Below are positions 17,164 through 52,587 of a stretch of DNA of 64,000 bases, one piece after another. Under the pieces are notes generated by a model. That model did not search any database. It was not told the DNA's origin and was given only the letters and a program-made list of their open reading frames with translations. Each line of letters starts with the position of its first letter. Positions within the stretch are counted from its first letter, which is position 1. The DNA is taken from positions 248,001 to 312,000 of the forward strand of contig JAPNXP010000003.1 in the NCBI GenBank assembly GCA_028753945.1, in the 5' to 3' direction. Both the position numbers and the translations under genes were made by a program. This DNA is from Hexactinellida sp. DTS-2022 (taxonomy: Eukaryota > Porifera > Hexactinellida).

Positions 17164-17171
17164 GTGCTAAC

Positions 17172-22221: not shown

Positions 22222-22290
22222 TGTGTAATTGTATGTAGTGTACTAAATTAGTATAGGCTCAAATCGACTTGAAATCAACGCATTAAAAAA

Positions 22291-22416
22291 AAAAATCCAA
22301 AATTGCAGCTGTGCCGACGCATATTCCTTTGGTGGCACTATATTTTGGTGGTGTTTTATTGATAGTGCCTCCAAAGGAACATGCTGTCGGCACAGCTGCA
22401 ATTTTTGATTTTTTTT
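22291..22416 (-). repeat. P1 hairpin copy 1 (reversed)
   Basis: Left-edge copy. The arms end in AATTGCAGCTGTGCCGAC instead of GCAGCCTGTGCCGAC, and the GCATG/ATATTCC arm has a substitution. Followed by reversed spacer II. Confidence 0.9.
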
Positions 22417-23500
22417 CGCCATGTCATCATCACTATGAAGGTGTTAATTTATTTCAGAAAGGTGTTTCAAAAGGCAACGACCCTTAGTGAGTTGGTAGTT
22501 TCCATTTAGCTTAATCATGAGATATTCAAGTTTCAGTAGAATAATCATCACCTCAAGGTGTCAAGACCCATTTGTAGAGGTGTTACGTGGCATAAGGATC
22601 AATTGATAAATTGGAAGTTTGTTTCTATCTTGTATCATCTCTGAGATTTATGATATTTAATTAATTAGTATAAATAATTATTAATATATTTATAATATAA
22701 CACCAATATCAATGTCAACTTACAATTATTAATTTAAATTATTTTGTCATAAATAATTAATTAATTAATTTGGCTAGCAAATTTCAATTCCGCACACTCG
22801 ATAATTATCCCTTAATTAACCCTCGGCTGTCTTGGGGTAAAAGGTATAAATAGAAAAACCCCACTTTCACTTTCACTTTCAATTGAAATTCAATTAACTT
22901 TCAGTTTAAATTTTACATTCCTAGCCAGACGAGGGTTAATAAACAAATTGAAAGCATCTATATAAGTCATATACTGACTGAAATAATTATAATTAATTAC
23001 GTCATTATATTAACAGTGCAATAATAATCTCGCAGAATTAAATATAATCACATAATCTGTCGTTGTTATGAAATATATAATCTTAGTTTTCAATTAGAAA
23101 ATAGAAGCCTACTCGAACTCACAAGTGGAATCAATATAATTATCACAAGTTGAAACAATAGAATTAGATTTAACACTTTCAATTGAACTGAAGTGTTAGT
23201 AAACAAAGGAAATTTTCAACTGAATTGTGGCACAAACGAAGCCCAATTTGAAAATTCGTGCACTGTGACAAGGTGTAGAATTAAATTCTCCACCGAATGC
23301 ATATAATTTGAATATTTGCGCACAATTTATTGTCTTTTTCTAACATTAAACAGGTGCGAAAATGTGTCCAAAAAATCAAATAAAAATCGTGACGCCAGGT
23401 GCACATCTGTAACCCATGAGACACCTGTCCTGAAAATTTCAGTTATTATTTAATTAAACTCTATTCTGTGGATGAGCTACTACGGATAAATATTAATAAC

Positions 23501-23628
23501 AAAAAATCCAAAATTGCAGCCTGTGCCGACGCATGTTCCTTTGGTGGCACTATATTTTGTTGGTTGTTTATTGATAGTGCCTCCAAAGGACATGCTGTCG
23601 GCGCAGGCTGCAATTTTGGATTTTTTTT
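23501..23628 (-). repeat. P1 hairpin copy 2 (reversed)
   Basis: Loop TTTTGTTGGTTGTTTATTG. Followed by reversed spacer I (AACGCCCAAGGTGTGAAGAA). Confidence 0.92.
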
Positions 23629-24370
23629 CGCCAAGTCATCAACGCCCAAGGTGTGAAGAAACATTTGTTAATTGGTCCGAGTCACAAGGAACGGTAGATA
23701 AATTTGAAGTTTGTTTCTACCATAAACCATCTTGAGTTTAATGCCATTCATTCATTATGTATTGATAATAAATTCTATTATTAGTTATATATTTTAGCAA
23801 TATTATCCACGGTTGGTTGAGTTGAGTCAACAAATTCCTTATATTATATTATTTAATTTAATCCATTGTATAGTAATACTATAATTAAATAGAAGCCAGC
23901 TGGAATTTATAAGTTAAATCAATATAATTATCGCAAGTTGAATCACTAGAGTAGGATTTAACAAGTTAAATCAATATAATTATTACAAGTTGAAACAATG
24001 GAATTAGATTTCACAGTTTTACTGAAATTGAAATGTGAGTAAACAAAGAGATTTCAACCCACATTTATGGCAGAAATTGAACCCATTTTAAAAAGATTTC
24101 TTCGGCCATCAGACGCATAATTCTATGGTGAATCCAAATGTGAAATAAAATTTGGGGGTTTAGTAAAACATTTTTTGAGTTATGGATCAGACAAATTTTG
24201 AAAGGTGTTAAAGATGTGTCCAAAATTTGTTAATAAAAAATCGTAACCCCAGGTGCAAATTAGACGTCGACTCCGAACCTACATGCCAAGTTTCAGCCCT
24301 CTATGTATATAGGTGTGGCCAGGGCAGTGAGGGCACCGTCTACGGAGAAAAAATAATAAAAAAATAAATA

Positions 24371-24553
24371 AAGGCAGTGATTCCAATACTGGGCCACTAT
24401 ACTATAGTATAGTCGGCACAGTAAAAATAATAATAAAGGCAGTGATTCCAATACTGGGCCACTATACTATAGTATAGTCGGCACAGTAAAAAATAAAGGC
24501 AGTAATTCCAATACTGGGCCACTATACTATAGTATAGTCGGCACAGTAATAAT
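24371..24553 (-). repeat. P2 block a, three reversed units
   Basis: Three units of AAGGCAGTGATTCCAATACT plus GGGCCACTATACTATAGTAT, each ending GTCGGCACAGTA. The block directly precedes reversed P1 copy 3. Confidence 0.93.
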
Positions 24554-24683
24554 AAAAATCCCAAATTGCAGCCTGTGCCGACGCATGTTCCTTTGGTGGC
24601 ACTATATTTTGATGGTGGTTTATTGATAGTCCCTCCAATGGAACATGCTGTCGGCACAAGCTGCAATTTTGGATTTTTTTTTT
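24554..24683 (-). repeat. P1 hairpin copy 3 (reversed)
   Basis: Outer arm reads ATCCCAAATTGCAG (one change). Followed by reversed spacer II, which contains a perfect 22-bp P3 palindrome at 24847-24868 (arms GTGTTGGGTGA). Confidence 0.92.
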
Positions 24684-25137
24684 GCCTAGTCATCATCACT
24701 ATGAAGGTGTTAAATTATTTCAGAAAGGTGTTTCAGAAGGCAACGACCCTTAGAGTGGTGGAAGTTTCCATTTAGCTCACTTCATTTGAGAGATATTCAA
24801 GTTTCAGTAGAATATAATTAGTGATGAGTCAGCATTTTTTATGTGCGTGTTGGGTGATCACCCAACACCAACCAACCTATTCGCAAAGTAGAATTCACAA
24901 AATTGTAAAAACACATTTTTTTTACGATGTCATCATCACCTCAAGGTGTCAAGATCCAATTGGACAGGTGTTACGTGGCATAAGGAACAATTGATAAATT
25001 GGAAGTTTGTTTCTATCTCGTATAATCATTGAGATTTATGGTATTTATTTAATTAGTATAAATAATTATTAATTTATTAATAATTTAACACCATTATTAT
25101 GTACAGCAAAATAAATGAAGTTCAATTATTTGCAATT

Positions 25138-25455
25138 ATTACTGTGCCGACTATACTATAGTATAGTGGCCCAGTTCTAATCTCAGTGCCTTGGTTAGTT
25201 ATTACTGTGCCGACTATACTATAGTATAGTGGCCCAGTATTGGAATCACTGCCTTTATTATTACTGTGCCGACTATACTATAGTATAGTGGCCCAGTATT
25301 AGAATCACTGCCTTTATTATTATTATTACTGTGCCGACTATACTATAGTATAGTGGCCCAGTTCTAATCTTACTGCCTTGGTTAGTTATTACTGTGCCGA
25401 CTATACTATAGTATTGTGGCCCAGTTCTAATCTTAGTGCTTTGGTTAGTTATTAT
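25138..25455 (+). repeat. P2 block b, five forward units at the orientation switch
   Basis: First forward block. Units alternate two tails, TATTGGAATCACTGCC and TTCTAATCTCAGTGCCTTGG. It ends in TTATTAGTCCGTAG and spacer II-type sequence. No P1 hairpin precedes it. Confidence 0.93.
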
Positions 25456-26518
25456 TAGTCCGTAGCCTCTCTACTGAACAGAGTTTTACTAACTAAGAGC
25501 CCAAATTTTCACGATATGTGTCTCATGGGTTACAGATGTGCACCTGGGGTCACGATTGTTTACTACATTTTTTTGGACACATTTTTGCACCTGTTTAATA
25601 TTAGAAAAAGAACAATAAATAGTGCACAAATATTTAATTTATATGCATTCGATAGAGAATTAAATTGTACACCTTTTCACAGTGCACGAATTTTTAAATT
25701 GAGTTTCGTTTGTGCCACAATTGAGTTGCAAGTTTCCTTTGTTTACTAACACTTCAGTTCAATTGAAGTGTTAAATCGAATTCTATTGTTTCAACTTATG
25801 ATAATTACATTGATTCAACTTGTGAGATCGAGTAGGCTTCTATTTTCTAATTGAAAACTAAGATTTTACATTCCATAACAACAACAGATTATGTGATTAT
25901 ATTTATTTCTGCTCAGAATATTCTTGAACAATGGATACATGAGATATTTAATTCTAATTAATTCGCTCTGAGTTTAACTTAGAGAAACGGTTCCAATTAA
26001 ATTATTGGGGTATCGAGTGCGCTGAATTCAAATATGATAGTGAAATTAAATTTAAATTAATTATTTAGCAAATAATTGAACTTAATTTATTTTGATGTAA
26101 ATAATATTGGTGTTAAATTATCTTAGATTAATTAAATATTTATACTAATTATCTAAATTTCATTAATCTCAGAAATGATACAAGATAGAAACAAACTTTA
26201 AATTTATCAATTGGTCCTTATGGCACGTACCACCTATACAAGTGGATCTTGACACCTTGAGGTGATGATGACATCGTCAAAAAAATGTATTTTTACAATT
26301 TTGTGAATTATATTATTAAAATGGGTTAGTTGGAGTTGGGTGATGACCCAACACTCACATAAAAAATGCTGATTCATCACTTATTATATTCTACTGAAAC
26401 TTGAATATCTTTGAAACGAAGTGAGCAAAATGGAAACTTCCACCACTCTAAGGGTCGTAGCCTTCTGAAACACCTTTCTGAAATAATTTAACACCTTTAT
26501 AGTGATGATGACTTTGCG

Positions 26519-26650
26519 AAAAAAAATCCAAAATTGCAGCCTGTGCCGATAGCATGTTCCTTGGGAGGCACTATCAATAAACCACCACCAAAATATAGTG
26601 CCACCAAAGGAACATGCGTCGGCACAGGCTGCAATTTTGGATTTTTTTTT
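26519..26650 (+). repeat. P1 hairpin copy 4
   Basis: First forward P1. Left arm has CCGATAGCATG. Spacer II upstream, P2 block c downstream. Confidence 0.93.
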
Positions 26651-26652
26651 GT

Positions 26653-26833
26653 TTTTACTGTGCCGACTATACTATAGTATAGTGGCCCAGTTCTAATCTT
26701 ACTGCCTTTATTTTACTGTGCCGACTATACTATAGTATAGTGGCCCAGTTCTAATCTTACTGCCTTTATTTTTACTGTGCCGACTACACTATAGTATAGT
26801 GGCCCAGTATTGGAATCACTGCCTTTATTTTTG
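26653..26833 (+). repeat. P2 block c, three units
   Basis: Follows P1 copy 4 after a short GTTTTT joint. The third unit has one change in the palindrome (ACTACACTATAGTATAGT). Confidence 0.92.
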
Positions 26834-27545
26834 TTATTCTTTCTCCGTAGCAGGTGCCCTGGCCACACCTATATACATAGAGGGCTGAAACTTGGAATGT
26901 AGGTTCGGAGTCGACGTCTAATTTGCACCTGGGGTTACAATTTTTGATTAACAAATTTTTGACACATCTTTAACACCTTGAAAATTTGTCTGGTCCATAA
27001 CTCAAAATATGTTCTACTAAACCCCCAAATTTTATTTCATATTTGGATTCCTATTAAAATTCTGCGTCTGTTGGGAGAAGAAAATCTTCAATAAAGAGTT
27101 TTATTTATGCCATAAATGGGGGTTGAAATTTCTTTGTTTACTCACACTTCAGTTTCAGTATAACTGTTAAATCTAATTCCATTGTTTCAACTTGTAATAA
27201 TTATATTGATTTAACTTGTTAAATCTTACTCTATTGATTCAACTTGCGATAATTAAATTGATTTAACTTATAAATTGCAGCTGGCTTCTATTTAATTTAC
27301 CATACAATGGATTAAATAAAATAATATAATATAAGGAATTTGTTGACTTAATTCAACCCAACCGTGGATAACAATGCTAATATAAATAACTAATAATATA
27401 ATTTATTATCAATACATAATGAATGAATGGCATTAAACTCAAGATGGTTTTTGATAGAAACAAACTTCAAATTTATCTACCGTTCCTTGTGACTCGGACC
27501 AATTAACAAATGCTTCTTCACACCTTGGGCGTTGATGACTTGGCG

Positions 27546-27673
27546 AAAAAAATTCCAAAATTTGCACCTGCGCCGACAGCATGTTCCTTTGGAGGCACTA
27601 TCAATAAACAACCAACAAAATATAGTGCCACCAAAGGAACATGCGTCGGCACTGGGTGCAATTTTGGATTTTT
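27546..27673 (+). repeat. P1 hairpin copy 5
   Basis: Spacer I upstream. The outer left arm is changed (ATTCCAAAATTTGCACCTGC). CTCCGTAG follows with no P2 block. Confidence 0.92.
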
Positions 27674-28558
27674 ATTTTTTATTTTATTTTTTCTCCGTAG
27701 CAGGTGCCCTGGCCACACCTGTATTCATTGAGGGCTGAAACTTGGCATGTAGTTGCGGAGGGACCGTCTAATTTGCACCTAGGGTTACGAATTTTTGTTA
27801 AGAAATTTTTGAGACATCTTTAACACCTTTCAAAATTCGTCTGGTCCATAACTCAAAATATGTTTTAATAAACCCCAAAATTTTATTTCATATTTAGATT
27901 CATCTTAAAATTCTGCGTGTGATGGGAGAAGAAAATTTGTTAAAATTGATTTAATTTCTGCCATAAATGGGAGTTGAAATTCCTTTGTTTACTCAACACT
28001 TCAATTTCAATAAAACTGTGAAATCTAATTCCATTGTTTCAACTTGTAATAATTATATTGATTTAACTTGTTAAATCTTTCACTATTGTTTCAACTTGTA
28101 ATAATTAAATTGATTCATCTTATAAATTCCAGCTGGCTTCTATTTAATTGTAGTATTACTATACAATGGATTAAATAAAATAATATAATATAAGGAATTT
28201 GTTGACTCAACTCAACCAACCGTGGATAACATTGCTAAAATAAATAACTAATAATATAATTTAATATCAATACACAATGAATGCAGCTGGCTTCTATTTA
28301 ATTGTAGCATTACTATACAATGGATTAAATTAAATTAATTTATATAAGGAATTTGGTGACTTTACTCAACACACCGTGGATAACATTGCTAAAATATATA
28401 ACTAATAATATAATTTATTATCAATACATAATGAATGAATGGCATTAAACTCAAGATGGTTTATGATCGAAACAAACTTAAATTTATCTACCGTTCCTTG
28501 TGGCTCGGATCAATTAACAAATGGATCATGACACATTGAGGCGTTGATGACATGGCGT

Positions 28559-28681
28559 AAAAAATTCCAAAATTGCAGATGTGCTGACAGCATGTTCTTT
28601 TGGAGGCACTATCAATAACCCACCAACAAAATATAGTGCCACCAAAGGAACATGCGTCGGCACAGCTGCAATTTTGGATTA
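28559..28681 (+). repeat. P1 hairpin copy 6
   Basis: Short-arm variant, with AATTGCAGATGTGCTGAC on the left and GTCGGCACAGCTGCAATT on the right. Confidence 0.91.
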
Positions 28682-29423
28682 TTATTTTTATTTTTATTAT
28701 TTTTATTTCTCCGTAGCAGGTGCCCTGACCACACCTATATACATAGAGGGCTAAAACTTGGAATGTTGGTTCGGAGTCGACGTCTGATTTGCACCTGGGG
28801 TTACAATTTTGTATTAACAAATTTTTGACACATCTTTAACACCTTTCAAATTTTGTCTGGTCCATAACTCAAAAATTGTTTTACTAAACCCGCAAATTTT
28901 ATTTCACATTTGGATTCGCCATAAAATTCTGCGTCTGATGGGAAATAAATATTTCAATAAAGAGGTCAATTTCTGCCATAAATGGGGGTTGAAATTTCTT
29001 TGTTTACTCACACTTCAATTTCAGTAAAACTGTGAAATCTAATTCCATTGTTTCAACTTGTAATAATTATATTGATTTAACTTGTTAAATCCTACTCTAG
29101 TGATTCAACTTGCGATAATTATATTGATTTAACTTATAAATTCCAGCTGGCTTCTATTTAATTGTAGTATTACTATACAATGGATTAAATAAAATATTAT
29201 AATATAAGGAATTTGTTGACTTAATTAAACTTAACCGTGGATAACATTGCTAAAATAAATAACTAATAATATAATATATTATCGATATATGTATAATGAA
29301 TGAATGGCAGTAAACTATAGATGGTTTACGATAGAAACAAACTTCAAATTTATCTACCATTCCTTGTGACTCGGACCAATTAACAAATGGATTTTGACAC
29401 CTTGAGGCGTTGATGACTGGGCG

Positions 29424-29551
29424 AAAAAAAATCCAAAATTGCAGACTGTGCCGATAGCATGTTCCTTTGGAGGCACTATCAATAAACAAACAACAAAATA
29501 TAGTGCCACCAAAGGAACATGCCATCGGCACAGTCTGCAATTTTGGATTTT
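29424..29551 (+). repeat. P1 hairpin copy 7
   Basis: The only forward copy whose right arm reads GCCATCGGCAC. P2 block d follows. Confidence 0.92.
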
Positions 29552-29552
29552 A

Positions 29553-29765
29553 TTACTGTGCCGACTATACTACAGTATAGTGGCCCAGTAGTGGTCTTAG
29601 TGCTTTGGTATATTATTATTATTATTATTACTGTGCCGACTATACTATAGTATAGTGGCCCAGTTCTAATCTCAGTGCCTTGGTTAGTTATTACTGTGCC
29701 GACTATACTATAGTATAGTGGCCCAGTTCTAATCTCAGTGCCTTGGTTAGTTATTATTATTATTT
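29553..29765 (+). repeat. P2 block d, three units
   Basis: First unit palindrome is ACTATACTACAGTATAGT (one change) with tail AGTGGTCTTAGTGC. A (TAT)n spacer separates it from the second. Confidence 0.91.
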
Positions 29766-30729
29766 ATCCGTAGCCACTCCACAGAACAGAGTTTTATCAA
29801 CTAAGAGCCCAAATTTTAGGATGGGTGTCTCATGGGTTACAGATGTGCACCTGGGGTTACGATTTTTAATTAAGAAATTTTGGACACATGTTTAACACCT
29901 TTCAAAATTTGTCTGGTCCATAGCTCAAAAATTGTTTTACTAAACCCCCAAATTTTATTTCACATTTGGATTCGCCATAAAATTCTGCGTCTGATGGGAG
30001 AAGTAATTTTTCAATAAAGGGGTCAATTTCTGCCATAAATGGGGGTTGAAATTTCTTTGTTTACTCACACTTCAATTTCAGTAAAACTGTGAAATCTAAT
30101 TCCATTGTTTCAACTTGTAATAATTATATTGACACTGTTAATATACTGACGTAATTAATTATAATTAATTCAGTCAGTATATGACTTATATAGATGCTTC
30201 CAATTTGTTTATTAGGGGTTATCGAGTATGCTGAATTGAAATTTGATAGCCAAATTAATTAATTAATCATTTATGACAAAATAATTAAACTTAATAAATA
30301 TATGTTGACATTGAAATTGGTGTTAAATTATAAAAAATATTAATAATTATATATACTAATTAATTAAATATCATAAATCTCAGAGATCATAGAAGATAAA
30401 AACAAACTTTCAATTTATCAATTGGTCCTTATGGCACGTGCCACCTATACAAGTGGGTCTTGACACCTTGAGGTGATGATGACATCGTTAAAAAAATGTG
30501 TTTTTACAATTTTGTTAATTCAATATTAAAAATGGGTTAGTTCATGTTGGGTGATGACCCAACACTCACATAAAAAATGCTGAGTCATCAGTTGTTATAT
30601 TCTACTCAAACTTGAATATCGCTAAAAGGAAGTGAACTAAAACGAAACTTCCACCACTCTAAGGGTCGATGCCTTCTGTAACACCTTTTTGAAATGATTT
30701 AACACCTTTATAGTGATGATGACTTGGCG

Positions 30730-30865
30730 AAAAAAAAATCCAAAATTGCATCCTGTGCCGACAGCATGTTCCATTGGAGGCACTATCAATAAACCACCAA
30801 CAAAAACAAAATATAGTGCCACCAAAGGAACATGCGTCGGCACAGGATGCAATTTTGGATTTTTT
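30730..30865 (+). repeat. P1 hairpin copy 8
   Basis: Longest loop of the set (extra AAAACA). Spacer II with P3 upstream. Confidence 0.92.
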
Positions 30866-31584
30866 CTTTCTCCGTAGACGGTGCCCTGGCCAGAGCTTTA
30901 TAGTTGATGGGCTGAAACTTGTCATGTAGGTGCGATGGGACCGTCTAATTTGCACCTGGGGTTACGATTTTTGATTAACAAATTTTGGACACATCTTTAA
31001 CACCTTTCAAAATTTGTCTGGTCCATAACTCAAAATATGTTTTAATAAACCCCAAAATTTTATTTCATATTTGGATTCACCATAAAATTATGCGTCTGAT
31101 GGGAGAAGAAAATTTTCAATAAAGGGTTTAATTTCTGCCATAAATGGGGGCTGAAATCTCTTTGTTTACTCACACTTCATTTACTGTAAAACTGTGAAAT
31201 CTAATTCCATTGTTCAACTTGTTATATTTATATTGATTTAACTTGTTAAATCTTTCACTATTGTTTCAACTTGCAATAATTAAATTGATTTAACTTATAA
31301 ATTCCAGCTGGCTTCTATTTAATTGTAGTATTACTATACAATGGATTAAATATAATAATATAATATAATGAATTTGTTGACTCAACTCAACCAACCGTGG
31401 ATAACATTGCTAAAATAAATAACTAATAATATAATTTATTATCAATACATAATGAATGAATGGCATTAAACTCTAGAGTCTAGATGGTTTATGATAGAAA
31501 CAAACTTCAAATTTATGTACCGTTCCTTGTGACTCGGACCAAATAACAAATGCTTCTTCACACCTTGGACGTTGATGACTTGGC

Positions 31585-31677
31585 GAAAGAGGCACTATCA
31601 ATAAACAACACAAAAATATAGTGCCACTAAAGGAACATGCTGTCGGCGCAGGCTGCAATTTTGGATTTTTTTTTTTT
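31585..31677 (+). repeat. P1 hairpin copy 9, left arm mostly lost
   Basis: Spacer I runs straight into GAGGCACTATCAATAA. About 40 bp of the left arm are missing, while the right arm is complete and carries GCTGTCGGC, usually seen in the other arm. Confidence 0.88.
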
Positions 31678-32985
31678 AATTATTATTTTTTCTCCGTAGA
31701 CGGTGCCCTGGCCAGAGCTTTGGAGTTGATGGGCTAAAACTTGGCATGTAGGTGCGTATGGACCGTCTAATTTGCACCTAGGGTTACGATATTTTATTAA
31801 CACATTTTGGACACATTTTTAACACCTTTCAAAATTTGTCTGGTCCATAACTGAAAAAGGGTTTTACTAAACCCCCAAATTTTATTTCATATTTGGATTC
31901 ACCATAAAATTCTGCGTCTGATGGGAGAAGAAATCTTTGAATAAAGGGGTCAATTTCTGCCATAAATGGGGTTTGAAGTTTCTTTGTTTACTCACACTTC
32001 AATTTCAGTAAACTGTGAAATCTAATTCCATTGTTTCAACTTGTAATAATTATATTGATTTAACTTGTTAAATCCTACTCTAGTGATTCAACTTGCGATA
32101 ATTATATTGATTTAACTTAGAAATTCCAGCTGGCTTCTATTTAATTCTAATATTACTATACAATGGATTAAATAAATATTATAATATAAGGAATTTGTTG
32201 ACTAAATTCAACTTAACCGTGGATAACATTGCTAAAATAAATAACTAATACTATAATTTATTAACAATAAATATTGAATGATTGGCTTTAAACTCAAGAT
32301 GGTTTATGATAGAACTAACTGTTAAGATTTTACATTCCACAACAACGACAGATTAAGTGAATATATTTATTTCGGCGAGTATATTCTTGCACAATTAATG
32401 TACTGACGTAATTAATTATAATTAATTCCTTTTGTATTTAACTTATAGACGGTTCCAATTGGATTATTGGGGTTATCGAGTGCGTGGAATTCAAAAATTA
32501 TAGTGAAATTCAATTTAAATTAATAATAATTGCAAATAATTGAACTTAATTTATTTTGCTGTATATAATAATGGTGTTAAATAATTAATACATTAATTAC
32601 ATTTTTATACTAATTAGCTAAATTTCATTAATCTCAGAGATGATACAAGATAGAAACAAACTTTCAATTTATCAATTGGTCCTTATGCCACGTACCACCT
32701 ATACAAGTGGGTCTTGACACCTTGAGGTGATGATGACATCGTTAAAAAAATGTATTTTTACAATTTTTTTAATTCGACATTTAAAATGGGTTAGTTGGTG
32801 TTGGGTGATGACCCAACACTCACATAAAAAATTCTGGCTCATCACATATTATATTCTACTAAAACTTGAATATCTTTGAAACGAAGTGAGCAAAATGGAA
32901 ACTTCCACGACTCTAAGGGTCGTTGCCTTCTGAAACACCTTTCTGAAATAATATAACACCTTCATAGTGATGATGACATGGCGGG

Positions 32986-33112
32986 AAAAAAAATCCAAAA
33001 TTGCAGCCTGTGCCGACAGCATGTTCCATTGGAGGCACTATCAATAAACCACCAACAAAATATGGTGCCACCAAAGGAGCATGCGTCGGCACAGGCTGCA
33101 ATTTTGGATTTT
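32986..33112 (+). repeat. P1 hairpin copy 10
   Basis: Spacer II and P3 upstream. P2 block e is attached directly after ATTTTGGATTTT. Confidence 0.92.
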
Positions 33113-33352
33113 ATTACTGTGCCGACTATACTATAGTATAGTGGCCCAGTATTGGAATCACTGCCATTATTATTATTTATTTTTACTGTGCCGACTATAC
33201 TATAGTATAGTGGCCCAGTATTGGAATCACTGCCTTTATTACTGTGCCGACTATACTATAGTATAGTGGCCCAGTATTAGAATCACTGCCTTTATTACTG
33301 TGCCGACTATACTATAGTATAGTGGCCCAGTATTGGAATCACTGCCTTGGTA
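33113..33352 (+). repeat. P2 block e, four units
   Basis: Units at about 33116, 33184, 33240 and 33296, all with the TATTGGAATCACTGCC-type tail. Unit length is 56-57 bp for the last three. Confidence 0.93.
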
Positions 33353-34439
33353 TATTTTTTATCCGTATCCTCTCCACAGAACAGAGTTTTATTTATTAAG
33401 AGGCCAAATTTTCAGGATATGTGTCTCATGGGTTACAGATGTGCACCTGGGGTCACGATTTTTTTTATTACATTTTTTTGGACACATTTTTACACCTGTT
33501 TAATGTTGGGAAAATAACAATAAATGGTGCCCCAATATTCTATTTATATGCATTCGATAGAGAACTAAATTCTACACATTTTCACAGTGCACGAATTTTA
33601 AAATTGTACTTAGTTTGTGCCACAATTGAGTTTCAAGTTTCCTTTGTTTACTAACACTTCAGTTCAATTGAAAGTGTTAAATCCAATTCTATTGTTTCAA
33701 CTCGTATTATAATATTGATTCAACTTGTGAGATCGAGTAGGCTTCTATTTTCCAATTGAAAAAAAAGATTATATATTTCACAACAACGACAGATTATGTG
33801 ATTATATTTACTTCTGATAGAATATTATTGGACTGTTAATATACTGACGTAATTAATAATAATTAATTAAGTCAGTATATGACTTATATAGATGCTCCCA
33901 ATTTGTTTATTAGGGGTTATCGAGTATGCTGAATTGAAATTTGATAGCCAAATTAATTAATTAATCATTTATGACAAAATAATTAAACTTAATAAATATA
34001 AGTTGACATTGAAATTGGTGTTAAATAATAAATATTATTAATAATTATTTATACTAATTAATTAAATATCATAAATCTCAGAGATCATAGAAGATAGAAA
34101 CAAACTTTCAATTTATCAATTGGTCCTTATGGCACGTGCCACCTATACAAGTGGGTCTTGACACCTTTAGGTGATGATGACATCGTTAAAAAAATGTGTT
34201 TTTACAATTTTGCTAATTCGATATTTAAAATAGGTTAGTTGATGTTGGGTGATGAGTCACTGATGACCCAACACTCACATAAAATATGCTGAGTCATTAG
34301 CTATTATATTCTACTCAAACTTGAATATCTCTAAAATGAAGTGAACTAAATGGAAAATTCCACCACTCTAAGGGTCGTAGGATTCTGAAACACCTTTCTG
34401 AAATAATTTAACACCTTTATAGTGATGATGAATTGGCGC

Positions 34440-34568: not shown

Positions 34569-34579
34569 ATTTTTATTAT

Positions 34580-38773: not shown

Positions 38774-39815
38774 ATATTTTTTATTATTATTTTTATTATT
38801 ATTATTATTTTTATTTCTCCGTAGCAGGTGCCCTGGCCACACCTGTATACATTTAGGGCTGAAAATTGGCATGTAGTTGCGGAGGGACCGTCTAATTTGC
38901 ACCTGGGGTTACGATTTTTGATCAACAAATTTTGGACACATTTTTGACACCTTTCAAAATTTGTCTGGTCCATAACTAAAAAGATGTTTTACTAAACCCC
39001 CAAATTTTATTTCATATTTGGATTCGCCATAAAATTCTGCGTCTGATGGGAGAATAAATTTTCCAATAAAGGGGTCAATTTCTGCCATAAATGGGGGTTG
39101 AAATTTCTTTGTTTACTCACACTTCAATTTCAGTAAAGTGTTGAATCTAATTCTATTGTTTCAACTTGTAATAATTATATTGATTTAACTTGTTAAATAC
39201 TACTCTAGTGATTCAACTTGCGATAATTATATTGATTTAACTTGTTAAATCCTACTCTAGTGATTCAACTTGCGATAATTATATTGATTTAACTTATAAA
39301 TTCCAGCTGGCTTCTATTTAATTCTAGCATTTGATAGTGAAATTCGATTTAAATTAATAATAAGTGCAAATAATTGAACTTTATTTATTTTGCTGTACAT
39401 AATAATGGTGTTAAATTATTTATTAATTGATTAAATATTATACTAATTAGATAAATTTCATTAATCTCAGAGATGATACAAGATAAAAACAAACTTTCAA
39501 TTTATCAATTGGTCCTTATGCCACGTACCACCTATACAAGTGAGTCTTGACACCTTGAGGTGATTATGACATTGTCAAAAAAATGTATTTTTACAATAAT
39601 GTGAATTCGAGATTTAAAATGGGTTATTTGAAGTTGGGTGAAGACCCAACACTCACATAAAAAATGCTGAGTCATCAGCTATTATATTCTACTCAAACTT
39701 GAATATCTCTAAAATGAAGTGAACTAAATGGAAACTTCCGCCACTCTAAGGGTCGATGCCTTCTGTAACACCTTTTGATATATTTTAACACCTTCATAGT
39801 GATGATGACATGGCG

Positions 39816-39943
39816 AAAAAAAATCCAAAATTGCAGCTGTGCTGACAGCATGTCCCATTGGAGGCACTATCAATAAACCACCACCAAAATATAGTGCCAC
39901 CAAAGGAACATGCGTCGGCACAGCTGCAATTTTGGATTTTTTT
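39816..39943 (+). repeat. P1 hairpin copy 15
   Basis: Short-arm form (GCAGCTGTGCTGACAGC ... GCGTCGGCACAGCTGC), near identical to copy 18. Confidence 0.92.
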
Positions 39944-40658
39944 AAATTATCTTTTCTCCGTAGACGGTGCCCTGGCCAGAGCTTTATAGTTGATGGGCTT
40001 AAACTTTGCATGTAGGTGCGATGGGACCGTCTAATTTGCACCTGGGGTTACGATTTTTGATTAAGAAATTTTTGACACATCTTTAACACCTTTCAAAATT
40101 TGTCTGGTCCATAACACAAAATATGTTTTAATAAACCCCCAAATTTTATTTCACATTTGGATTCACCATAAAATTCCGCGTCTGATGGGAGAAGAAAACT
40201 TTCAATAAAGAGTTTTATTTCTGCCATAAATGGGAGTTGAAATTTCTTTGTTTACTCACACTTCAGTTTCAGTATAACTGTTAAATCTAATTCCATTGTT
40301 TCAACTTGTAATAATTATATTGATTTAACTTGTTAAATCTTACTCTATTGATTCAACTTGCGATAATTAAATTGATTTAACTTATAAATTGCAGCTGGCT
40401 TCTATTTAATTTACCATACAATGGATTAAATAATATAATATAATATAAGGAATTTGTTGACTTAATTCAACTCAACCGTGGATAACAATGCTAAGATAAA
40501 TAACTAATAATATAATTTATTATCAATACATAATGAATGAATGGCATCAAACTCAAGATGGTATAAGATAGAAACAAACTTCAAATTTATCTACCGTTCC
40601 TTGTGACTCGGACCAATTAACAAATGCTTCTTCACACCTTGGGCGTTGATGACTTGGC

Positions 40659-40786
40659 AAAAAAAATCCAAAATTGCAGCCTGCGCCGACAGCATGTTCC
40701 TTTGGAGGCACTATCAATAAACAACCAACAAAATATAGTGCCACCAAAGGAACATGCGTCGGCACAGGGTGCAATTTTGGATTTTT
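40659..40786 (+). repeat. P1 hairpin copy 16
   Basis: Spacer I upstream. Left arm GCCTGCGCCGAC is opposite GTCGGCACAGGGTGC. Confidence 0.92.
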
Positions 40787-41863
40787 CTTTTCTCCGTAGA
40801 CGGTGCCCTGGCCAGAGCTTTAGAGTTGATGGGCTAAAACTTGGCATGTAGGTGCGATAGGACCGTCTAATTTGCACCAGGGGTTTCGATTTTTTATTGA
40901 CAAATTTTTTACACATCTTTAACACCTTTCAAAATTTGTCTGGTCCATAACTCAAAAATTGTTTTACTAAACCCCCACATTTTATTTTTTATTTGGATTC
41001 ACCATAAAATTCTGCGTCAGATGGGAGAAGAAACCTTTCAATAAAGGGGTCAAATTAAATTAATTTATATAAGGAATTGGTTGACTTGACTCAACTCACC
41101 GTGGATAACATTGCTAAAATAAATAACTAATAATTTAATATATTATCAATAAGTAATGAATGAATGGCATTAAACTAAAGATGGTTTATGATAGAACCGT
41201 TAAGATTTTACATTCCACAACAACGACAGATTAAGTGATTATATTTATTTCGGCGAGAATATTCTTTTTGCACAATTAATGTACTGACGTAATTTATTAT
41301 AATTAATTCCTTTTGTATTTAACTTATAGAATTTTCCAATTGGATTATTGGGGTTATCGAGTCCGCTGAATTCAAATATGATAGTGAAATTCGATTTAAA
41401 TTAATAATAAGTGCAAATAATTGAACTTTATTTATTTTGCTGTACATAATAATGGTGTTAAATTATTAATTTAATAATTAAATATTTATACTAATTAGGT
41501 AAATTTCATTAATCTCAGAGATGATACAAGATAGAAACAAACTTTCAATTTATCAATTGGTCCTTATGCCAGGTACCACACATACAAGTGGGTCTTGACA
41601 CCTTGAGGTAATGATGACATCGTCAAAAAATGTATTTTTACAATTTTGTGAATTAAATAATTCGCATGGGTTGGTTGGAGTTGGGTGAATACCCAACACG
41701 CACTTTAAAAATGCTGAGTCATCACAGATTATATTCTACTGAAACTTGAATATCTCTCAAATGAAGTGAGCTAAATGGAAACTTCCACCACTCTAAGGGT
41801 CGTTGCATACTGAAACACCTTTCTGAAATAATTTAACACCTTCATAGTGATGATGACTAGGCG

Positions 41864-41994
41864 AAAAAAAATCCAAAATTGCAGCTAGTGCCGACAGCAT
41901 GTTCCTTTGGAGGCACTATCAGTAAACCACCACCAAAATATAGTGTCACCAAAGGAACATGCGTCGGCACAGGGTGCAATTTTGGATTTTTTTT
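41864..41994 (+). repeat. P1 hairpin copy 17
   Basis: Spacer II upstream. Left arm GCTAGTGCCGAC. Leads into the largest P2 block. Confidence 0.92.
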
Positions 41995-42452
41995 ATTGTG
42001 CCGACTATACTATAGTATAGTGGCCCAGTATTGGAATCACTGCCTTTATTATTACTGTGCCGACTATACTATAGTATAGTGGCCCAGTATTGGATCACTG
42101 CCTTTATTATTACTGTGCCGACTATACTATAGTATAGTAGCCCAGTTCTAATCTTACTGCCTTTATTACTGTGCCGACTATACTATAGTATAGTGGCCCA
42201 GTATTGGAATCACTGCCTTTATAACTGTGCCGACTATACTATAGTATAGTGGCCCAGTATTGGATCACTGCCTTTATTATTACTGTGCCGACTATACTAT
42301 AGTATAGTAGCCCAGTTCTAATCTTACTGCCTTTATTACTGTGCCGACTATACTATAGTATAGTGGCCCAGTATTGGAATCACTGCCTTTATTACTGTGC
42401 CGACTATACTATAGTATAGTGGCCCAGTTCTAATCTCACTGCCTTTATTATT
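41995..42452 (+). repeat. P2 block g, eight units
   Basis: Largest P2 block, with units about 57 bp apart from 41997 to 42450. A run of three units (about 42055-42222) is repeated almost exactly at 42224-42395, so the block grew by duplicating groups of units. One unit type has GTATAGTAGCCCAG. Confidence 0.93.
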
Positions 42453-43185
42453 TTTTTTTTTTTCTTTTTCTCCGTAGACGGTGCCCTGGCCTGAGCTTTA
42501 TAGTTGATGGGCTGAAACTTGGCATGTAGGTGCGATGGGACCGTCTAATTTGCACCTGGGGTTACGATTTTGTATTAACAAATTTTTGACACATCTTTAA
42601 CACCTTTCAAAATTTGTCTGGTCCATAACTCAAAAGATGTCTTAATAAACCCCAAAATTTTATTTCATATTTAGATTCATCTTAAAATTCTGCGTCTGAT
42701 GGGAGAAGAAAATTTGTTAAAATTAGTTTAATTTCTGCCATAAATGGGAGTTGAAATTCCTTTGTTTACTCAACACTTCAATTTCAATAAAACTGTGAAA
42801 TCCAATTCCATTGTTTCAACTTGTAATAATTATATTGATTTAACTTGTTAAATCTTTCACTATTGTTTCAACTTGCGATAATTAAATTGATTCAACTTAT
42901 AAATTCCAGCTGGCTTCTATTTAATTCTAGTATTACTATACAATGGATTAAATATAATATAATAATATAAGGAAATTGTTGACTAAACTCAACTCACCGT
43001 GGATAACATTGCTAAAATAAATAACTAATAAAATAATTTATTATCAAACAATACATAATGAATGAATGCCATTAAACTCAAGATGGTTTATGTTAGAAAC
43101 AAACTTCAAATTTATCTACCGTTCCTTGTGACTCGGACCACTTAACAAATGGTTTTTGACACATTGAGGCGTTGATGACTTGGCG

Positions 43186-43316
43186 AAAAAAAAATCCAAA
43201 ATTGCAGCTGTGCTGACAGCATGTCCCATTGGAGGCACTATCAATAAACCACCACCAAAATATAGTGCCACCAAAGGAACATGCGTCGGCACAGCTGCAA
43301 TTTTGGATTTTTTTTT
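43186..43316 (+). repeat. P1 hairpin copy 18
   Basis: Short-arm form like copy 15, but preceded by spacer I. The same hairpin variant sits beside different spacers. Confidence 0.92.
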
Positions 43317-44039
43317 ATTATTATTTTTATTTTTTCTCCGTAGACGGTGCCCTGGCCTGAGCTTTATAGTTGATGGGCTGAAACTTGGCATGTAGGTGCG
43401 TATGGACCGTCTAATTTGCACCTGGGGTTACGATTTTTTATTAACAAATTTTTGACACATCTTTAACACCTTTCAAAATTTGTCTGGTCCATAGCTAGAA
43501 AAATGTTTACTAAACCCCCAAATTTTATTTCACATTTGGATTCACCATAAAATTCTGCGTCTGATGGGGGAAGAAAACTTTCAATAAAGAGTTTTATTTC
43601 TGCCATAAATGGGGGTTAGAATTTCGTTGTTTACTCACACTTCAGTTTCAGTATAACTGTTAAATCTAATTCCATTGTTTCAACTTGTAATAATTATATT
43701 GATTTAACTTGTTAAATCTTACTCTATTGATTCAACTTTCGATAATTAAATTGATTTAACTTATAAATTGCAGCTGGCTTCTATTTAATTTACCATACAA
43801 TTGATTAAATAAAATAATATAATATAAGGAATTTGTTGACTTAATTCAACTCAACCGTGGATAACAATGCTAATATAAATAACTAATAATATAATTTATT
43901 ATATCATACATAATGAATGAATGGCATGAAACTCAAGATGGTTTAAGATATAAACAAACTTCAAATTTATCTACCGTTCCTTGTGACTCGGACCAATTAA
44001 CAAATGCTTCTTCACACCTTGGGCCTTGATGACTTGGCG

Positions 44040-44171
44040 AAAAAAAATCCAAAATTGCAGCCTGCGCCGACAGCATGTTCCTTTGGAGGCACTATCAATA
44101 AACAACCAACAAAATATAGTGCCACCAAAGGAACATGCGTCGGCACAGGGTGCAATTTTGGATTTTTTTTT
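44040..44171 (+). repeat. P1 hairpin copy 19
   Basis: Same GGGTGCAATTTTGG right arm as copy 16. P2 block h follows. Confidence 0.92.
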
Positions 44172-44352
44172 ACTGTGCCGACTATACTATAGTATAGTGG
44201 CCCAGTATTGGAATCACTGCCTTTATTTTTACTGTTCCGACTATACTATAGTATAGTGGCCCAGTTCTAATCTTACTGCCTTGGTTAGTTATTACTGTGC
44301 CGACTATACCATAGTATAGTGGCCCAGTATTAGAATCACTGCCTTTATTTAT
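44172..44352 (+). repeat. P2 block h, three units
   Basis: Second unit starts CTGTTCCGAC and third has ACTATACCATAGTATAGT, each a single change. Confidence 0.91.
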
Positions 44353-45651
44353 ATTATTATTATTTCTCCGTAGCAGGTGCCCTGGCCACACCTGTATACA
44401 TAGAGGGCTGAAACTTGGCATGTAGATTCGGAGTCGACGTCTAATTTGCACCTGGGGTTACGATTTTGTATTAACAAATTTTTGACACATCTTTAACACC
44501 TTTCAAAATTTGTCTGGTCCATAACTCAAAAAATGTTTTACTAAACCCCAAATTTTATTTCACATTTGGATTCGCCATAAAATTCTGCGTCTGATGGGAG
44601 AAGAGATTTTTCAATAAAGGGGTCAATTTCTGCCATAAATGGGGGTTGAAATTTCTTTGTTTACTGACACTTCAATTTCAGTAAAGTGTTAAATCTAATT
44701 CTATTGTTTCAACTTGTAATAATTATATTGATTTAACTTGTTAAATCATACTCTAGTGATTCAACTTGCGATAATTATATTGATTTAACTTATAAATTCC
44801 AGCTGGCTTCTATTTAATTTTAGTATTACTATACAATTGATTAAATTAAATAATATAATATAAGGAATTTGTTGACTCAACTCAACCAACCATGGATAAC
44901 ATTGCTAAAATAAATAACTAATAATATAATTTATTATCAATACATAATGAATGAATGGCATTAAACTAAAGATGGTTTATGATAGAACCGTTAAGATTTT
45001 ACATTCCAGAACAACGACAGATTAAGTGATTATATTTATTTCGGCGAGAATATTCTTGCACAATTAATGACTGACTTAATTAATTATAATTAATTCATTT
45101 TGTATTTAACTTATAGACGGTTCCAAATAGATTATTGGGGTTATCGAGTGCGTGGAATTCAAATATTATAGTGAAATTCAATTTAAATTAATAATAATTG
45201 CAAATAATTGAACTTAATTTATTTTGCTGTATATAATAATGGTGTTAAATAATAAATAAATAAATTAAATATTTATACTAACTAGATAAATTTCATTAAT
45301 CTCAGAGATGATACAAGATAGAAACAAACTTTCAATTTATCAATTGGTCCTTATGCCAGGTACCACCTATACAAGTGGGTCTTGACACCTTGAGGTGATT
45401 ATGACATCGTCAAAAAAATGTACTTTTACAATTTTTTTAATTCGATATTTAAAATGGGTTAGTTGATGTTGGGTGATGACCCAACACACACATAAAAAAT
45501 GCTGAGTCATCAGCTATTATATTTTACTCAAAATTGAATATCTCTAAAATTAGATGAACTAAATGGAAACTTCCACCACTCTAAGGGTCGATGCCTTCTG
45601 TAACACCTTTTTGAAATAATTTAACACCTTCATAGTGATGATGACATGGCG

Positions 45652-45784
45652 AAAAAAAATCCAAAATTGCAGCATGCGCCGACAGAATGTTCTTTTGGAG
45701 GCACTATAAATAAACAACCAACAAAATGTAGTGCCACCAAAGGAACATGCGTCGGCACAGGCTGAAATTTTGGATTTTTTTTTT
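45652..45784 (+). repeat. P1 hairpin copy 20
   Basis: Spacer II upstream. Followed by the TCCGTAGATCGTCC spacer, nearly identical to that at 34.9 kb. Confidence 0.91.
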
Positions 45785-46860
45785 ATTATTATTATTTTTG
45801 GTCCGTAGATCGTCCACTGAACAGAGTTTAATTAACTAAGAACCCAAAATTTCAGGACAGGTGTCTCATGGGTTACAGATGTGCACCTGGGGTCACGATT
45901 TTTTACTACATTTTTTTGGACACATTTTTGCACCTGTTTAATATTAGAAAAAGAACAATAAATAGTGCACAAATATTTAATTTATATGCATTCGATAGAG
46001 AATTAAATTCTACACCTTTTCACAGTGCATGAATTTTTAAATTGAGTTTCGTTTGTGCCACAATTGAGTTGCAAGTTTCCTTTGTTTACTAACACTTCAG
46101 TTCAATTGAAGTGTTAAATCGAATTCTATTGTTTCAACTTGTGATAATTACATTGATTCAACTTGTGAGATAGAGTAGGCTTCTATTTTCTAATTGAAAA
46201 CTAAGATTTTACATTCCATAACAACAACAGATTATGTGATTATATTTTTTTCTGCTCAGAATATTCTTGAACAATGGATACATGAGATATTTAATTCTAA
46301 TTAATTCGCTCTGTGTTTAACTTAGAGAAACGGTTCCAATTAGATTATTGGGGTATCGAGTGCGCTGAATTCAAATATGATGGTGAAATTAAATTTAAAT
46401 TAATTATTTAGCAAATAATTGAACTTAATTTATTTTGATGTAAATAATATTGGTGTTAAATTATCTTAGATTAATTAAATATTTATACTAATTATCTAAA
46501 TTTCATTAATCTCAGAAATGATACAAGATAGAAACAAACTTTAAATTTATCAATTGGTCCTTATGGCACGTACCACCTATACAAGTGGATCTTGACACCT
46601 TGAGGTGATGATGACATCGTCAAAAAAATGTATTTTTACAATTTTGTGAATTATATTATTAAAATGGGTTAAAGGAGTTGGGTGATGACCCAACACTCAC
46701 ATAAAAAATGCTGATTCATCACTTATTATATTCTACTGAAACTTGAATATCTTTGAAACGAAGTGAGCAAAATGGAAACTTCCACCACTCTAAGGGTCGT
46801 AGCCTTCTGAAACACCTTTCTGAAATAATTTAACACCTTTATAGTGATGATGACTTGGTG

Positions 46861-46977
46861 AAAAAAAAATCCAAAATTGCAGCCTGTGCCGACAGCATGT
46901 TCCATTGGAGGCACTACCACCAAAATATAGTGCCACCAAATGAACATGCGTCGGCACAGGCTGCAATTTTGGATTTA
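46861..46977 (+). repeat. P1 hairpin copy 21
   Basis: Loop reduced to GGCACTACCACCAAAATATA. Otherwise like copy 12. Confidence 0.91.
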
Positions 46978-47699
46978 TTTTTATTATTTTTATTTCTCCG
47001 TAGCAAGTGCCCTGGCCACACCTGTATACAAAGAGGGCTGAAACTTGGCATGTAGGTTCGGAGTCGAAGTCTAATTTGCACCTGGGGTTACGATTGTTGA
47101 TTAACAAAATTTGGAAACATGTTTAACACCTTTCAAAATTTGTCTGGTCCATAACTAAAAAGATGTTTTACTAAATCCCCAAATTTTATTTCATATTTGG
47201 ATTCACCATAAAATTCTGCGTCTGATGGGGGAAGAAATCTTTCAATAAAGGGGTCAATTTCTGCCATAAATGGGGGTTGAAATTTCTTTGTTTACTCACA
47301 CTTCAATTTCAGTAAAGTGTTAAATCTATCTATTGTTTCAACTTGTAATAATTATATTGATTTAACTTGTTGAATCCTACTCTAGTGATTCAACTTGCGA
47401 TAATTAGATTGATTTAACTTATAAATTCCTGCTGGCTTCTATTTAATTTACCATACATTGGATTAAATAAAATAATATAATATAAGGAATTTGTTGACTT
47501 AATTCAACTCAACCGTGGATAACAATGCTAATATAAATAACTAATTATATAATTTATTATCAATACATAATGAATGAATGGCATCAAACTCAAGATGGTT
47601 TAAGATAGAAACAAACTTCAAATTTATCTACCGTTCCTTGTGACTCGGACCAATTAACAAATGCTTCTTCACACCTTAGGCGTTGATGACTTGGCGAAA

Positions 47700-47821
47700 G
47701 AAAATCCAAAATTGCAGCCTGCGCCGACAGCATGTTCCTTTGGAGGCACTATCAATAAACAACACAAAAATATAGTGCCACCAAAGGAACATGCGTCGGC
47801 ACAGCTGCAATTTTGGATTTT
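47700..47821 (+). repeat. P1 hairpin copy 22
   Basis: Asymmetric arms: GCAGCCTGCGCCGAC left, GTCGGCACAGCTGC right. Spacer I upstream. Confidence 0.91.
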
Positions 47822-48529
47822 ATTTCTCCGTAGCAGGTGCCCTAACCACACCTATATACATAGAGGGCTGAAACTTGGAATGTAGGTTCGGAGTCGACGT
47901 TTAATTTGCACCTGGGGTTACAATTTTTGATTAACAAATCTTTGACACATCTTTAACACCTTGCAAAATTTGTCTGGTCCATAACTCAAAATATGTTCTA
48001 CTAAACGCCCAAATTTTATTTCATATTTGGATTCCTATTAAAATTCTGCGTCTGTTGGGAGAAGGAAATTTTCAATAAAGAGTTTTATTTATGCCATAAA
48101 TGGGGGTTGAAATTTCTTTGTTTACTCACACTTCAGTTTCAGTATAACTGTTAAATCTAATTCCATTGTTTCAACTTGTAATAATTATATTGATTTAACT
48201 TGTTAAATCTTACTCTATTGATTCAACTTGCGATAATTAAATTGATTTAACTTATACATTGCAGCTGGCTTCTATTTAATTTACCATACAATGGATTAAA
48301 TAAAATAATATAATATAAGGAATTTGTTGACTTAATTCAACCCAACCGTGGATAACAATGCTAATATAAATAACTAATAATATAATTTATTATCAATACA
48401 TAATGAATGAATGGCATTAAACTCAAGATGGTTTATGATAGAAACTAACTTCAAATTTATCTACCGTTCCTTGTGACTCGGACCAATTAACAAATGCTTC
48501 TTCACACCTTGGGCGTTGATGACTTGGCG

Positions 48530-48657
48530 AAAAAAATCCAAAATTGCAACCTGCGCCGACAGCATGTTCCTTTGGATACACTATCAATAAACCACCAACA
48601 AAATATAGTGCCACCAAACGAACATGCGTCGGCACAGGCTGCAATTTTGGATTTTTT
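48530..48657 (+). repeat. P1 hairpin copy 23
   Basis: Spacer I upstream. Left arm has TTTGGATACACTATC in place of TTTGGAGGCACTATC. Confidence 0.91.
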
Positions 48658-49393
48658 ATATTTATTATTATTATTATTTTCTCCGTAGACGGTGCCCTGG
48701 CCAGACCTTTATAGTTGATGGGCTGAAACTTGGCATGTAGGTGCGATGGGACCGTCTAATTTGCACCTGAGGTTACGATTTTTAATTAACACATTTTGGA
48801 CACATCTTTAACACCTTTCAAAATTTGTCTGGTCCTTAACTAAAAGAATGTTTTACTAAACCCCCAATTTTTATTTCATATTTGGATTCACCATAAAATT
48901 CTGCATCTGATGGGAGAAGAAAACCTTCAATAAAGAGTTTTATTTCTTCCATAAATGGGGGTTGAAATTTCTTTGTTTACTCACACTTCAATTTCAGTAA
49001 AACTGTGAAATCTAATTCCATTGTTTCAACTTGGAATAATTATATTGATTTAACTTGTTGAATCTTACTCTATTGTTTCTACTTGAGATAATTATATTGA
49101 TTTAACTAATAAATTCCAGCTGGCTTCTATTTAATTGTAGTATTACTATACAATGGATTAAATTAAATAATATAATATAAGGAATTTGTTCACTCAACTC
49201 AACCAACCGTGGATAACAATGCTAAAATAAATTACTAAAAATAATATATTTTATTATCAATACATAATGAATGAATGGCATTAAACACTTGATGGTTTAT
49301 GATAGAAACAAACTTCAAATTCAACAATCGTTCCTTGTGACTCCGACCAATAAACAAATGGTTCTTCACACCTTGGGCGTTGATGACTTGCCG

Positions 49394-49520
49394 AAAAAAA
49401 AATCCAAAATTGCAGCCTTAGCCGACAGCATGTTCCTTTGGAGGCACTATCAATAAACAACCAACAAATATAGTGCCACCAAAGGAACATGCGTCGGCAC
49501 AGGCTGCAATTTTGGATTTT
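49394..49520 (+). repeat. P1 hairpin copy 24, last forward copy
   Basis: Left arm GCAGCCTTAGCCGAC. About 100 bp further on, spacer sequence turns to reverse orientation (TTTCAATTGGAAAATAGAAG at 49629). Confidence 0.91.
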
Positions 49521-50036
49521 GATTTTTCTCCGTAGACGGTGCCCTTGCCAGAGATTTATAGTTGATGGTCTGAAACTTGGCATGTAGGTGCGATGGGACC
49601 GTCTAATTTGCACCTGGGGTTACGATTTCTTTTCAATTGGAAAATAGAAGCCTACTCGATCTCACAAGTGGAATCAATATAATAATAGCGAGTTGAAACA
49701 ATAGATTTAGATTAACACTTTCAATTGAACTGAAGTGTTAGTAAACAAAGGAAACTTGCAACTCAATTGTGGCACAAACGAAGCTCAATTTGAAAATTCG
49801 TGCACTGTGAAAAGGTGTAAAATTTAATTCTCTATCGAATGCATATAAATTAAATATTCGGGTACTTTTTATTGTTCCTGTTTCAATATTAAACAGGTGC
49901 AAAAATGTGTCCAAAAAAATGTAATAAAAAATCGTGACCCCAGGTACACATCTGTAACCCATGAGACACATATCCTGAAAATTTGGGCTCTTAGTTAATT
50001 AAACTCTGTTCTGGGGAGAGAATACGGACCAATAAT

Positions 50037-50167
50037 ATACCAAAGCACTAAGATTAGAACTGGGCCACTATACTATAGTATAGTCGGCACAGTAATAATA
50101 ATTGGCAACCAAAGCTCTAAGACCAATACTGGGCCACTATACTATAGTATAGTCGGCACAGTAAAAA
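50037..50167 (-). repeat. P2 block i, two reversed units at the right edge
   Basis: Two units with tails AGTGCTTTGG and AGAGCTTTGG-like in reverse orientation. They close the array; no P1 follows. Confidence 0.91.
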
Positions 50168-52585: not shown

Positions 52586-52587
52586 AA

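Follow-up and report, generated by a model that had tools for sequence, protein, structure and literature searches.

The mark of Helentrons is the combination of Rep, PIF1 and endonuclease (PMC4067079). Helentrons move the HINE/DINE-1 elements, in which a short motif lies 2-4 nt inside the 5' end and recurs, inverted, 38-60 nt from the 3' end (PMC4067079). For the Fusarium elements FoHeli1 and FoHeli2, PCR (polymerase chain reaction) suggested circles with joined ends, and there are occasional tandem copies (PMC5148889). Read-through or loss of the terminator has been described in plant Helitrons (PMC12628747), and consecutive insertion was favoured for two adjacent maize Helitrons (PMC2267711). 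Here we compare with these systems a 28-kb array of palindromes in the sponge Hexactinellida sp. DTS-2022. The window that we analysed is a stretch of 64,000 nucleotides of contig JAPNXP010000003.1 (C12:248001-312000), from a genome of 112.4 Mb in 18 contigs; coordinates are window positions unless a contig is named.

A preliminary description of this DNA, made from the letters alone, had pictured the array as three palindromes (P1, P2 and P3) that recur in fixed order with two types of spacer, beside an intact transposase. We conclude, with a probability of roughly 0.87, that the array is a non-autonomous, HINE-like derivative of a rolling-circle transposon of the Helentron type, a multimer in which units of the form [P2]n - body - P1 are joined head to tail. 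This conclusion draws on the preference of array edges for P2 and P1, on related sites that are uninterrupted, on units and junctions shared with Helentron genes, and on the mosaic make-up of the loci.

Units of the array

The array extends from 22285 to 50168 (the edges defined by BLAST are 22282 and 50169). A motif count gave 24 P1 hairpins and 36 copies of P2 in 9 blocks, exactly as previously described. P3 is also present, but at up to 3 mismatches we count 10 sites rather than about 12. The array had been said to contain no gene; the longest open reading frame (ORF) within it has 126 aa. Beyond the array, there is a 25th, fuzzy match to the P1 loop at 12249, and an 81-bp fragment of array sequence (86% identical) lies at 52581-52661.

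The modules do follow a fixed order. Downstream of the 24 P1 hairpins, we found P2 within 75 nt in 7 cases, a body start of the CCGTAG type in 16, and the outer end of the array in one. Conversely, 7 of the 9 P2 blocks come after a P1, and the remaining two are 5' ends (at 25136 and 50168). Because the order runs from 3' end to 5' end to body, the array is a head-to-tail series of [P2]n - body - P1 units. The orientation flips at ~25136 and ~49636; neither these flips nor the motif common to P1 and P2 (see below) had been pointed out before.

For statistics on the units, we combined the window with 20 other loci that we fetched, which gave 127 true P1 and 97 units. P2 is absent at 67 of the 97 junctions. 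The two types of spacer correspond to two classes of body: 60 of the 97 units bear P3 and have bodies of ~1.1-1.3 kb (10th to 90th percentile), and the 37 units without P3 have bodies of 0.7-0.8 kb (same percentiles).

P1 is a hairpin of 115 nt whose consensus forms 46 base pairs, with a one-base bulge and, nearer the loop, an unpaired A opposite A. A palindrome near the 3' end is a trait of Helentrons and HINEs, and here it is P1. P2 is an 18-bp palindrome that, by our reading of the sequence, lies within an imperfect palindrome of 35 bp; among the loci seen, its runs reach 40 copies. Both P1 and P2 contain CTGTGCCGAC, which occurs 60 times in the window (0.01 expected from shuffling) and stands near both ends of the element. 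Joined P1-P2 ends, with GGATTTT next to ACTGTGCC, are present within arrays. P2 is best read as the 5' terminus (the start signal) of a rolling-circle transposon, and P1 as its 3' terminus (the stop signal). A canonical Helitron, with 5' TC, 3' CTRR and insertion between A and T, does not fit the 5' T-ACTG, the 3' GGATTTT and the T-rich site, and we rejected this reading.

Edges and empty sites

If P2 and P1 are termini, then blocks of array sequence should tend to begin and end with them. Across the 20 loci and the window, 15 of 24 5' edges are at P2 (~9% for random internal positions) and 9 of 19 3' edges are at P1 (~11% for random internal positions); this tally includes two positions in the window's array (22820 and 22937) that are counted as edges because a brief stretch there went unmatched. 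ACTG is preceded by TT at 15 of the 17 edges listed, although two of those 15 (both from locus L016) are linkers within a P2 block.

We also searched for the joined flanks of four elements and found empty sites for two of them, the window's array and the array at locus L012. The empty sites for the window's array (C11:5097688, C11:11749317, C12:909786 and C11:12809530) are 81-83% identical to the joined flanks, and all four were aligned; each is adjoined by a partial, inverted second match. In three of the four the site is a T-tract followed by GA, which the occupied site is without. For L012, 33 rows span the join; in most of the 7 that were aligned, the site is TATATTATTAAAA, and ATT is found on either side of the element. 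No longer target duplication was seen at the aligned sites of either element. Insertion into T-rich DNA without a target duplication, another trait of Helentrons and HINEs, was thus observed for two of the four elements, with some ambiguity from the ATT at L012 and the GA in the window.

Since the joined flanks match uninterrupted DNA at four places, the array marks the point at which a single insertion went into T-rich DNA. The 28-kb array therefore came as one insertion, or it grew following one. It is also nested: a plus-strand array of 24.5 kb lies within a minus-strand element (Table 1). An assembly artefact is unlikely, because 20 other loci have the same make-up and because of the empty sites.

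Next to the array, at 22067-22222, there is a perfect 16-bp inverted repeat, ATTGCGTGACAGACTT. It lies within the repeat that also makes the empty sites.

A genome-wide pool of units

A 1-kb probe from the array has at least 221 matches in the genome, and across three genome searches, matches to the units were found on all 18 contigs. There are 4909 exact P2 cores and 2164 exact P1 3' ends. At up to 3 mismatches there are 8259 P1 arms, or, with two arms to a hairpin, an estimated ~4,100 hairpins. Controls with reversed patterns gave 0. At ~1.2 kb per unit, we estimate that array units make up ~4% of the genome. The preliminary description had proposed in advance a check of whether P1 and P2 occur together: they do, and with P3, at all 20 of the other fetched loci, which were selected by their match to the array probe. 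At these loci the array withstands the refutation that the description had set out, in which P1, P2 and the spacers would turn out to be independent repeats. Of 106 pairs of neighbouring P1 hairpins, 101 have both members pointing the same way. One array on C8 and one on C11 are collinear across 5.4 kb, with 92.7% identity.

One alternative is that the array is a structured satellite that expanded where it stands, through local duplication or unequal crossing-over, with the transposon pieces being secondary. There is some local copying: the unit that starts at 26644 shares 98.5% identity with the one that starts at 47820, and 13 of the 97 units have their nearest neighbour at the same locus, against 7.7 expected. 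But in the comparison of the window with the 20 loci, 18 of 22 window units are closest to a unit at another locus (87-99% identical), and just 4 of 22 have their nearest neighbour in the same array, which is not what a classical satellite would give. Local satellite growth is thus not the main source of the units. The preferred ends, the empty sites and the presence of units on all 18 contigs also speak against a satellite, and we consider this explanation improbable. The kinship of the units, as judged from their sequences, instead fits mobile blocks that draw on a wide pool, plus slight duplication within loci. For the same reason, we do not retain the idea of a new class of structured satellite, as the units look mobile.

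More improbable still is a reading of P1 and P2 as two distinct miniature transposons, each inserted repeatedly in a host repeat so as to mimic a grammar. P1 alone does resemble such an element (one copy has arms of 53 nt that are 85% complementary). However, in the units that we read, P1 stands at the end of the body, with similar flanks, and P2 in the window either follows P1 or starts an element.

Helentron genes among the arrays

The genome has 151 matches to Helitron domains. Among the matches listed, 20 rows are alike, with frames of 1652-1709 aa and E values near 1e-28. We scanned one copy, the 1675-aa ORF at locus L029, and it contains the Helitron_like_N (Rep), PIF1 and Exo_endo_phos domains, as in Helentrons. 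No P1 or P2 motif was found at up to 2 mismatches in the 9001 bases of L029 itself; the motifs are in the surrounding units.

We examined four copies of this endonuclease-type gene (on C11, C2, C18 and C1), which were picked by hand from the 20 similar rows, the C11 copy for its nearby array match. All four have array units on both sides, and the P1 copies seen around them point in the same direction as the gene. A query that spans the 5' junction of array and gene was matched over its full length by 8 of 44 rows, and a 3' junction query by 3 of 45, each with its own place included. The C2 and C18 copies start with P2 in non-array DNA, and the C2 copy (L053 and L032, about 895600-898050) has 40 copies of P2 upstream of the gene. 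The element thus shares units and ends with an autonomous Helentron, at the 5' junction and in the flanking units, as Helentron derivatives do. The array had been suggested to be a transposon's regulatory or replication region; this comes close, since P2 and P1 are compatible with the two termini of a rolling-circle element, but we see its partner in a Helentron located elsewhere and not in the adjoining Mutator-type gene.

Ahead of all four of these Helentron genes (L034, L036, L032 and L030), a short ORF that starts with MISIEL(Y/W)RARI leads to GG(I/V)E(I/L)NPGP, which we take to be a 2A/StopGo-like motif. Among the candidate papers, most of which were judged by their listing alone, we recognised no account of 2A motifs in a Helentron, or of a Helentron whose two ends are both arrayed.

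Several points weigh against the array being a Helentron derivative. The 3' copy of CTGTGCCGAC ends ~18-25 nt from the terminus, not 38-60 nt as in HINEs and Helentrons, and P1 is much longer than the published 3' palindromes. Among 98 distinct copies of P1, 4274 of 4457 cells at the 46 pairs are paired, compared with 4258 in shuffles, and changes on both sides number 9, compared with 1.5; the pairing data show conservation more than compensation, and the covariation is weak. Because P2 is part of the probe used to choose the loci, the figure for 5' edges is favoured, and the expected end is missed at 9 of the 24 5' edges and 10 of the 19 3' edges, likely by truncation. The joined flanks of L015 and L023 gave no empty site. 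The window's empty sites are no closer than 81-83% and have the extra GA beside the T-tract, and one of the four (L044) is without a clear T-tract. The inner array is without an intact 3' terminus. No gene copy was traced as far as a complete P1 terminus bordering unique DNA: the C18 copy is truncated, and those on C1, C2 and C11 extend past the fetched DNA. Finally, as noted above, nearest neighbours from the same locus are somewhat more frequent than chance.

How the arrays might form

If the array is derived from a Helentron, the Helentron protein would nick at the T-ACTGTGCCGAC end (P2), unwind one strand, and stop at the P1 hairpin. Arrays with a single orientation could then arise by read-through beyond P1, or by new copies that insert in the T-rich linkers between units. 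If the target strand is the T strand, orientation would be kept upon insertion into these linkers. Blocks of P2 may expand, contract or disappear via their TTATT linkers, which would leave P1 joined straight to the next body. Growth by read-through or terminator loss and growth by consecutive insertion both fit the array.

More tentatively, and we think it somewhat doubtful in this full form, start signals (P2) and stop signals (P1) are arrayed both in the autonomous element of this Helentron lineage and in its derivatives, nearly any stretch from a P2 to a P1 is therefore mobile, and insertion directed by the T strand into the lineage's own T-rich linkers builds head-to-tail mosaics from a genome-wide pool. 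If this is true, then a transposon has turned into a self-assembling modular repeat that occupies ~4% of the genome. On the main reading, a satellite-like grammar can be accounted for by what are likely the start and stop signals of a rolling-circle element. The ends, the empty sites and a gene-bearing partner are all found within one genome, and the formation of tandem arrays by Helitron-type elements becomes testable, as terminator read-through versus insertion into their own T-rich ends.

Neighbouring genes and coordinates

The intact transposase that had been reported beside the array is there: ORF 19460-21853 (797 aa) is open and encodes a Mutator-like transposase with a C-terminal PHD finger. 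It has 73 matches in the genome, many of them on C11. The preliminary description had raised a link between P1/P2 and this gene. When we compared the gene and its surroundings (16000-19459 and 21854-22284) with 200 bases at either end of the array, shared words were no longer than 11 nt, which is the level of shuffled sequence, and no terminal repeats common to the surroundings and the array ends were found (the longest words, direct or inverted, were 8-11 nt). That the array belongs to this transposase, for instance as its regulatory or terminal region, is very improbable: its distance of ~430 bp and the open frame favour a link, but the empty sites mark the array as a separate insertion, the genes found within such arrays are Helentrons, and a comparison of window positions 4684-22284 with the array gave nothing at E = 1e-5. 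From these sequence comparisons, the Mutator-type gene is taken as an unrelated neighbour.

The window also contains a Helitron, at 370-4683, with PIF1 and OTU domains and no endonuclease hit, which belongs to another group than the array's partner. It does not seem to be the partner: at E = 1e-5, array sequence is absent from its 5' side up to 22284 (its 3' side falls outside the window) and, as a control, from 3-kb flanks of two other Helitron genes of its own group (L038-L041). An ORF of 678 aa at 6965-9001 has a TNP-like RNase H domain and is, we presume, a P-element-type transposase. By eye, 53100-54000 resembles broken pieces of an SPT5-type gene.

Table 1. Features of the array (window positions).
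Feature	Position	Strand	Basis
Whole inserted element, P2 5' end at 50168, P1 3' end at 22285	22285..50168	-	edges and four empty sites
Outer element, 3' part	22285..25135	-	edges, nesting analysis
Inner nested array, 5' end at P2, 3' end truncated within body	25136..49635	+	BLAST edges 25125, 49639
Outer element, 5' part; ~205 bp of body missing at nesting site	49636..50168	-	nesting analysis
P2 block, 3 copies, after P1	24388..24546	-	motif count, order
P2 block, 5 copies, inner-array 5' end	25142..25425	+	motif count, edges
P2 block, 3 copies, after P1	26658..26808	+	motif count, order
P2 block, 3 copies, after P1	29556..29727	+	motif count, order
P2 block, 4 copies, after P1	33117..33331	+	motif count, order
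P2 block, 5 copies, after P1	34585..34843	+	motif count, order
P2 block, 8 copies, after P1	41996..42428	+	motif count, order
P2 block, 3 copies, after P1	44173..44328	+	motif count, order
P2 block, 2 copies, outer-element 5' end	50059..50161	-	motif count, empty-site alignment
P1 hairpin, outer-element 3' end	22296..22408	-	hairpin alignment, empty-site alignment
P1 hairpin	23507..23620	-	
P1 hairpin	24559..24673	-	
P1 hairpin	26527..26641	+	
P1 hairpin, arms diverged	27555..27670	+	ends by eye
P1 hairpin	28566..28678	+	
P1 hairpin	29432..29547	+	
P1 hairpin	30739..30859	+	
P1 hairpin without outer part of 5' arm	31590..31667	+	ends by eye
P1 hairpin	32994..33108	+	
P1 hairpin	34451..34564	+	
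P1 hairpin	35956..36070	+	
P1 hairpin	37204..37318	+	
P1 hairpin	38656..38770	+	
P1 hairpin	39824..39936	+	
P1 hairpin	40667..40781	+	
P1 hairpin	41872..41986	+	
P1 hairpin	43195..43307	+	
P1 hairpin	44048..44162	+	
P1 hairpin	45660..45774	+	
P1 hairpin	46870..46973	+	
P1 hairpin	47705..47817	+	
P1 hairpin	48537..48651	+	
P1 hairpin	49403..49516	+	
P3 palindrome	24850..24865	.	motif search
Other P3 sites, starts	26336, 30547, 32801, 35764, 37014, 39634, 41681, 45469, 46678		motif search

Comparison with known systems

Head-to-tail copies are also found among the Helitrons of maize and bats, where they were explained by rolling circles or consecutive insertion (PMC2267711, PMC5876387), and in Helraiser, as proposed here for P1, a 3' hairpin is the terminator (PMC5876387). 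However, the head-to-tail elements of maize, bats and plants are canonical Helitrons at A/T sites (PMC2267711, PMC5876387, PMC12628747). The tandem truncated Helitrons of plants (Xiong et al. 2016, as cited in PMC12628747) have numerous 5' ends but only one 3' end, whereas the array has 24 P1 and 9 P2 blocks.

Like the array, the Helitron2-type elements FoHeli1 and FoHeli2 have an inverted repeat embedded in a hairpin, a 3' ATTTT, and insertion before T, but they are ~5-6 kb long with one short hairpin per end (PMC5148889). Cg_HINE of the Pacific oyster resembles the array in that satellite-like tandem repeats were spread across the genome by Helentron derivatives, with T-rich and empty sites; its repeats lie between the left and right flanks, while the repeated unit of the array contains the ends themselves (PMC7492417).

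With HINE/DINE-1, the array shares its non-coding nature, insertion at T-tracts, palindromic ends and a partner that encodes an endonuclease, as well as a short motif at the 5' end that is inverted near the 3' end, and some HINE/DINE-1 copies contain tandem repeats (PMC4067079). In the HINEs of mites, the 3' palindromes are 5-10 bp, whereas the array's motif sits in a 115-nt hairpin; and unlike HINE/DINE-1, the array repeats both termini many times, and the partner genes bear the same units (PMC4067079). By most of the features that we tested, the array is a HINE-type Helentron derivative. It differs from the described ones in three respects: its 3' motif lies at another distance from the terminus, its 3' hairpin is far longer, and both of its ends are repeated.

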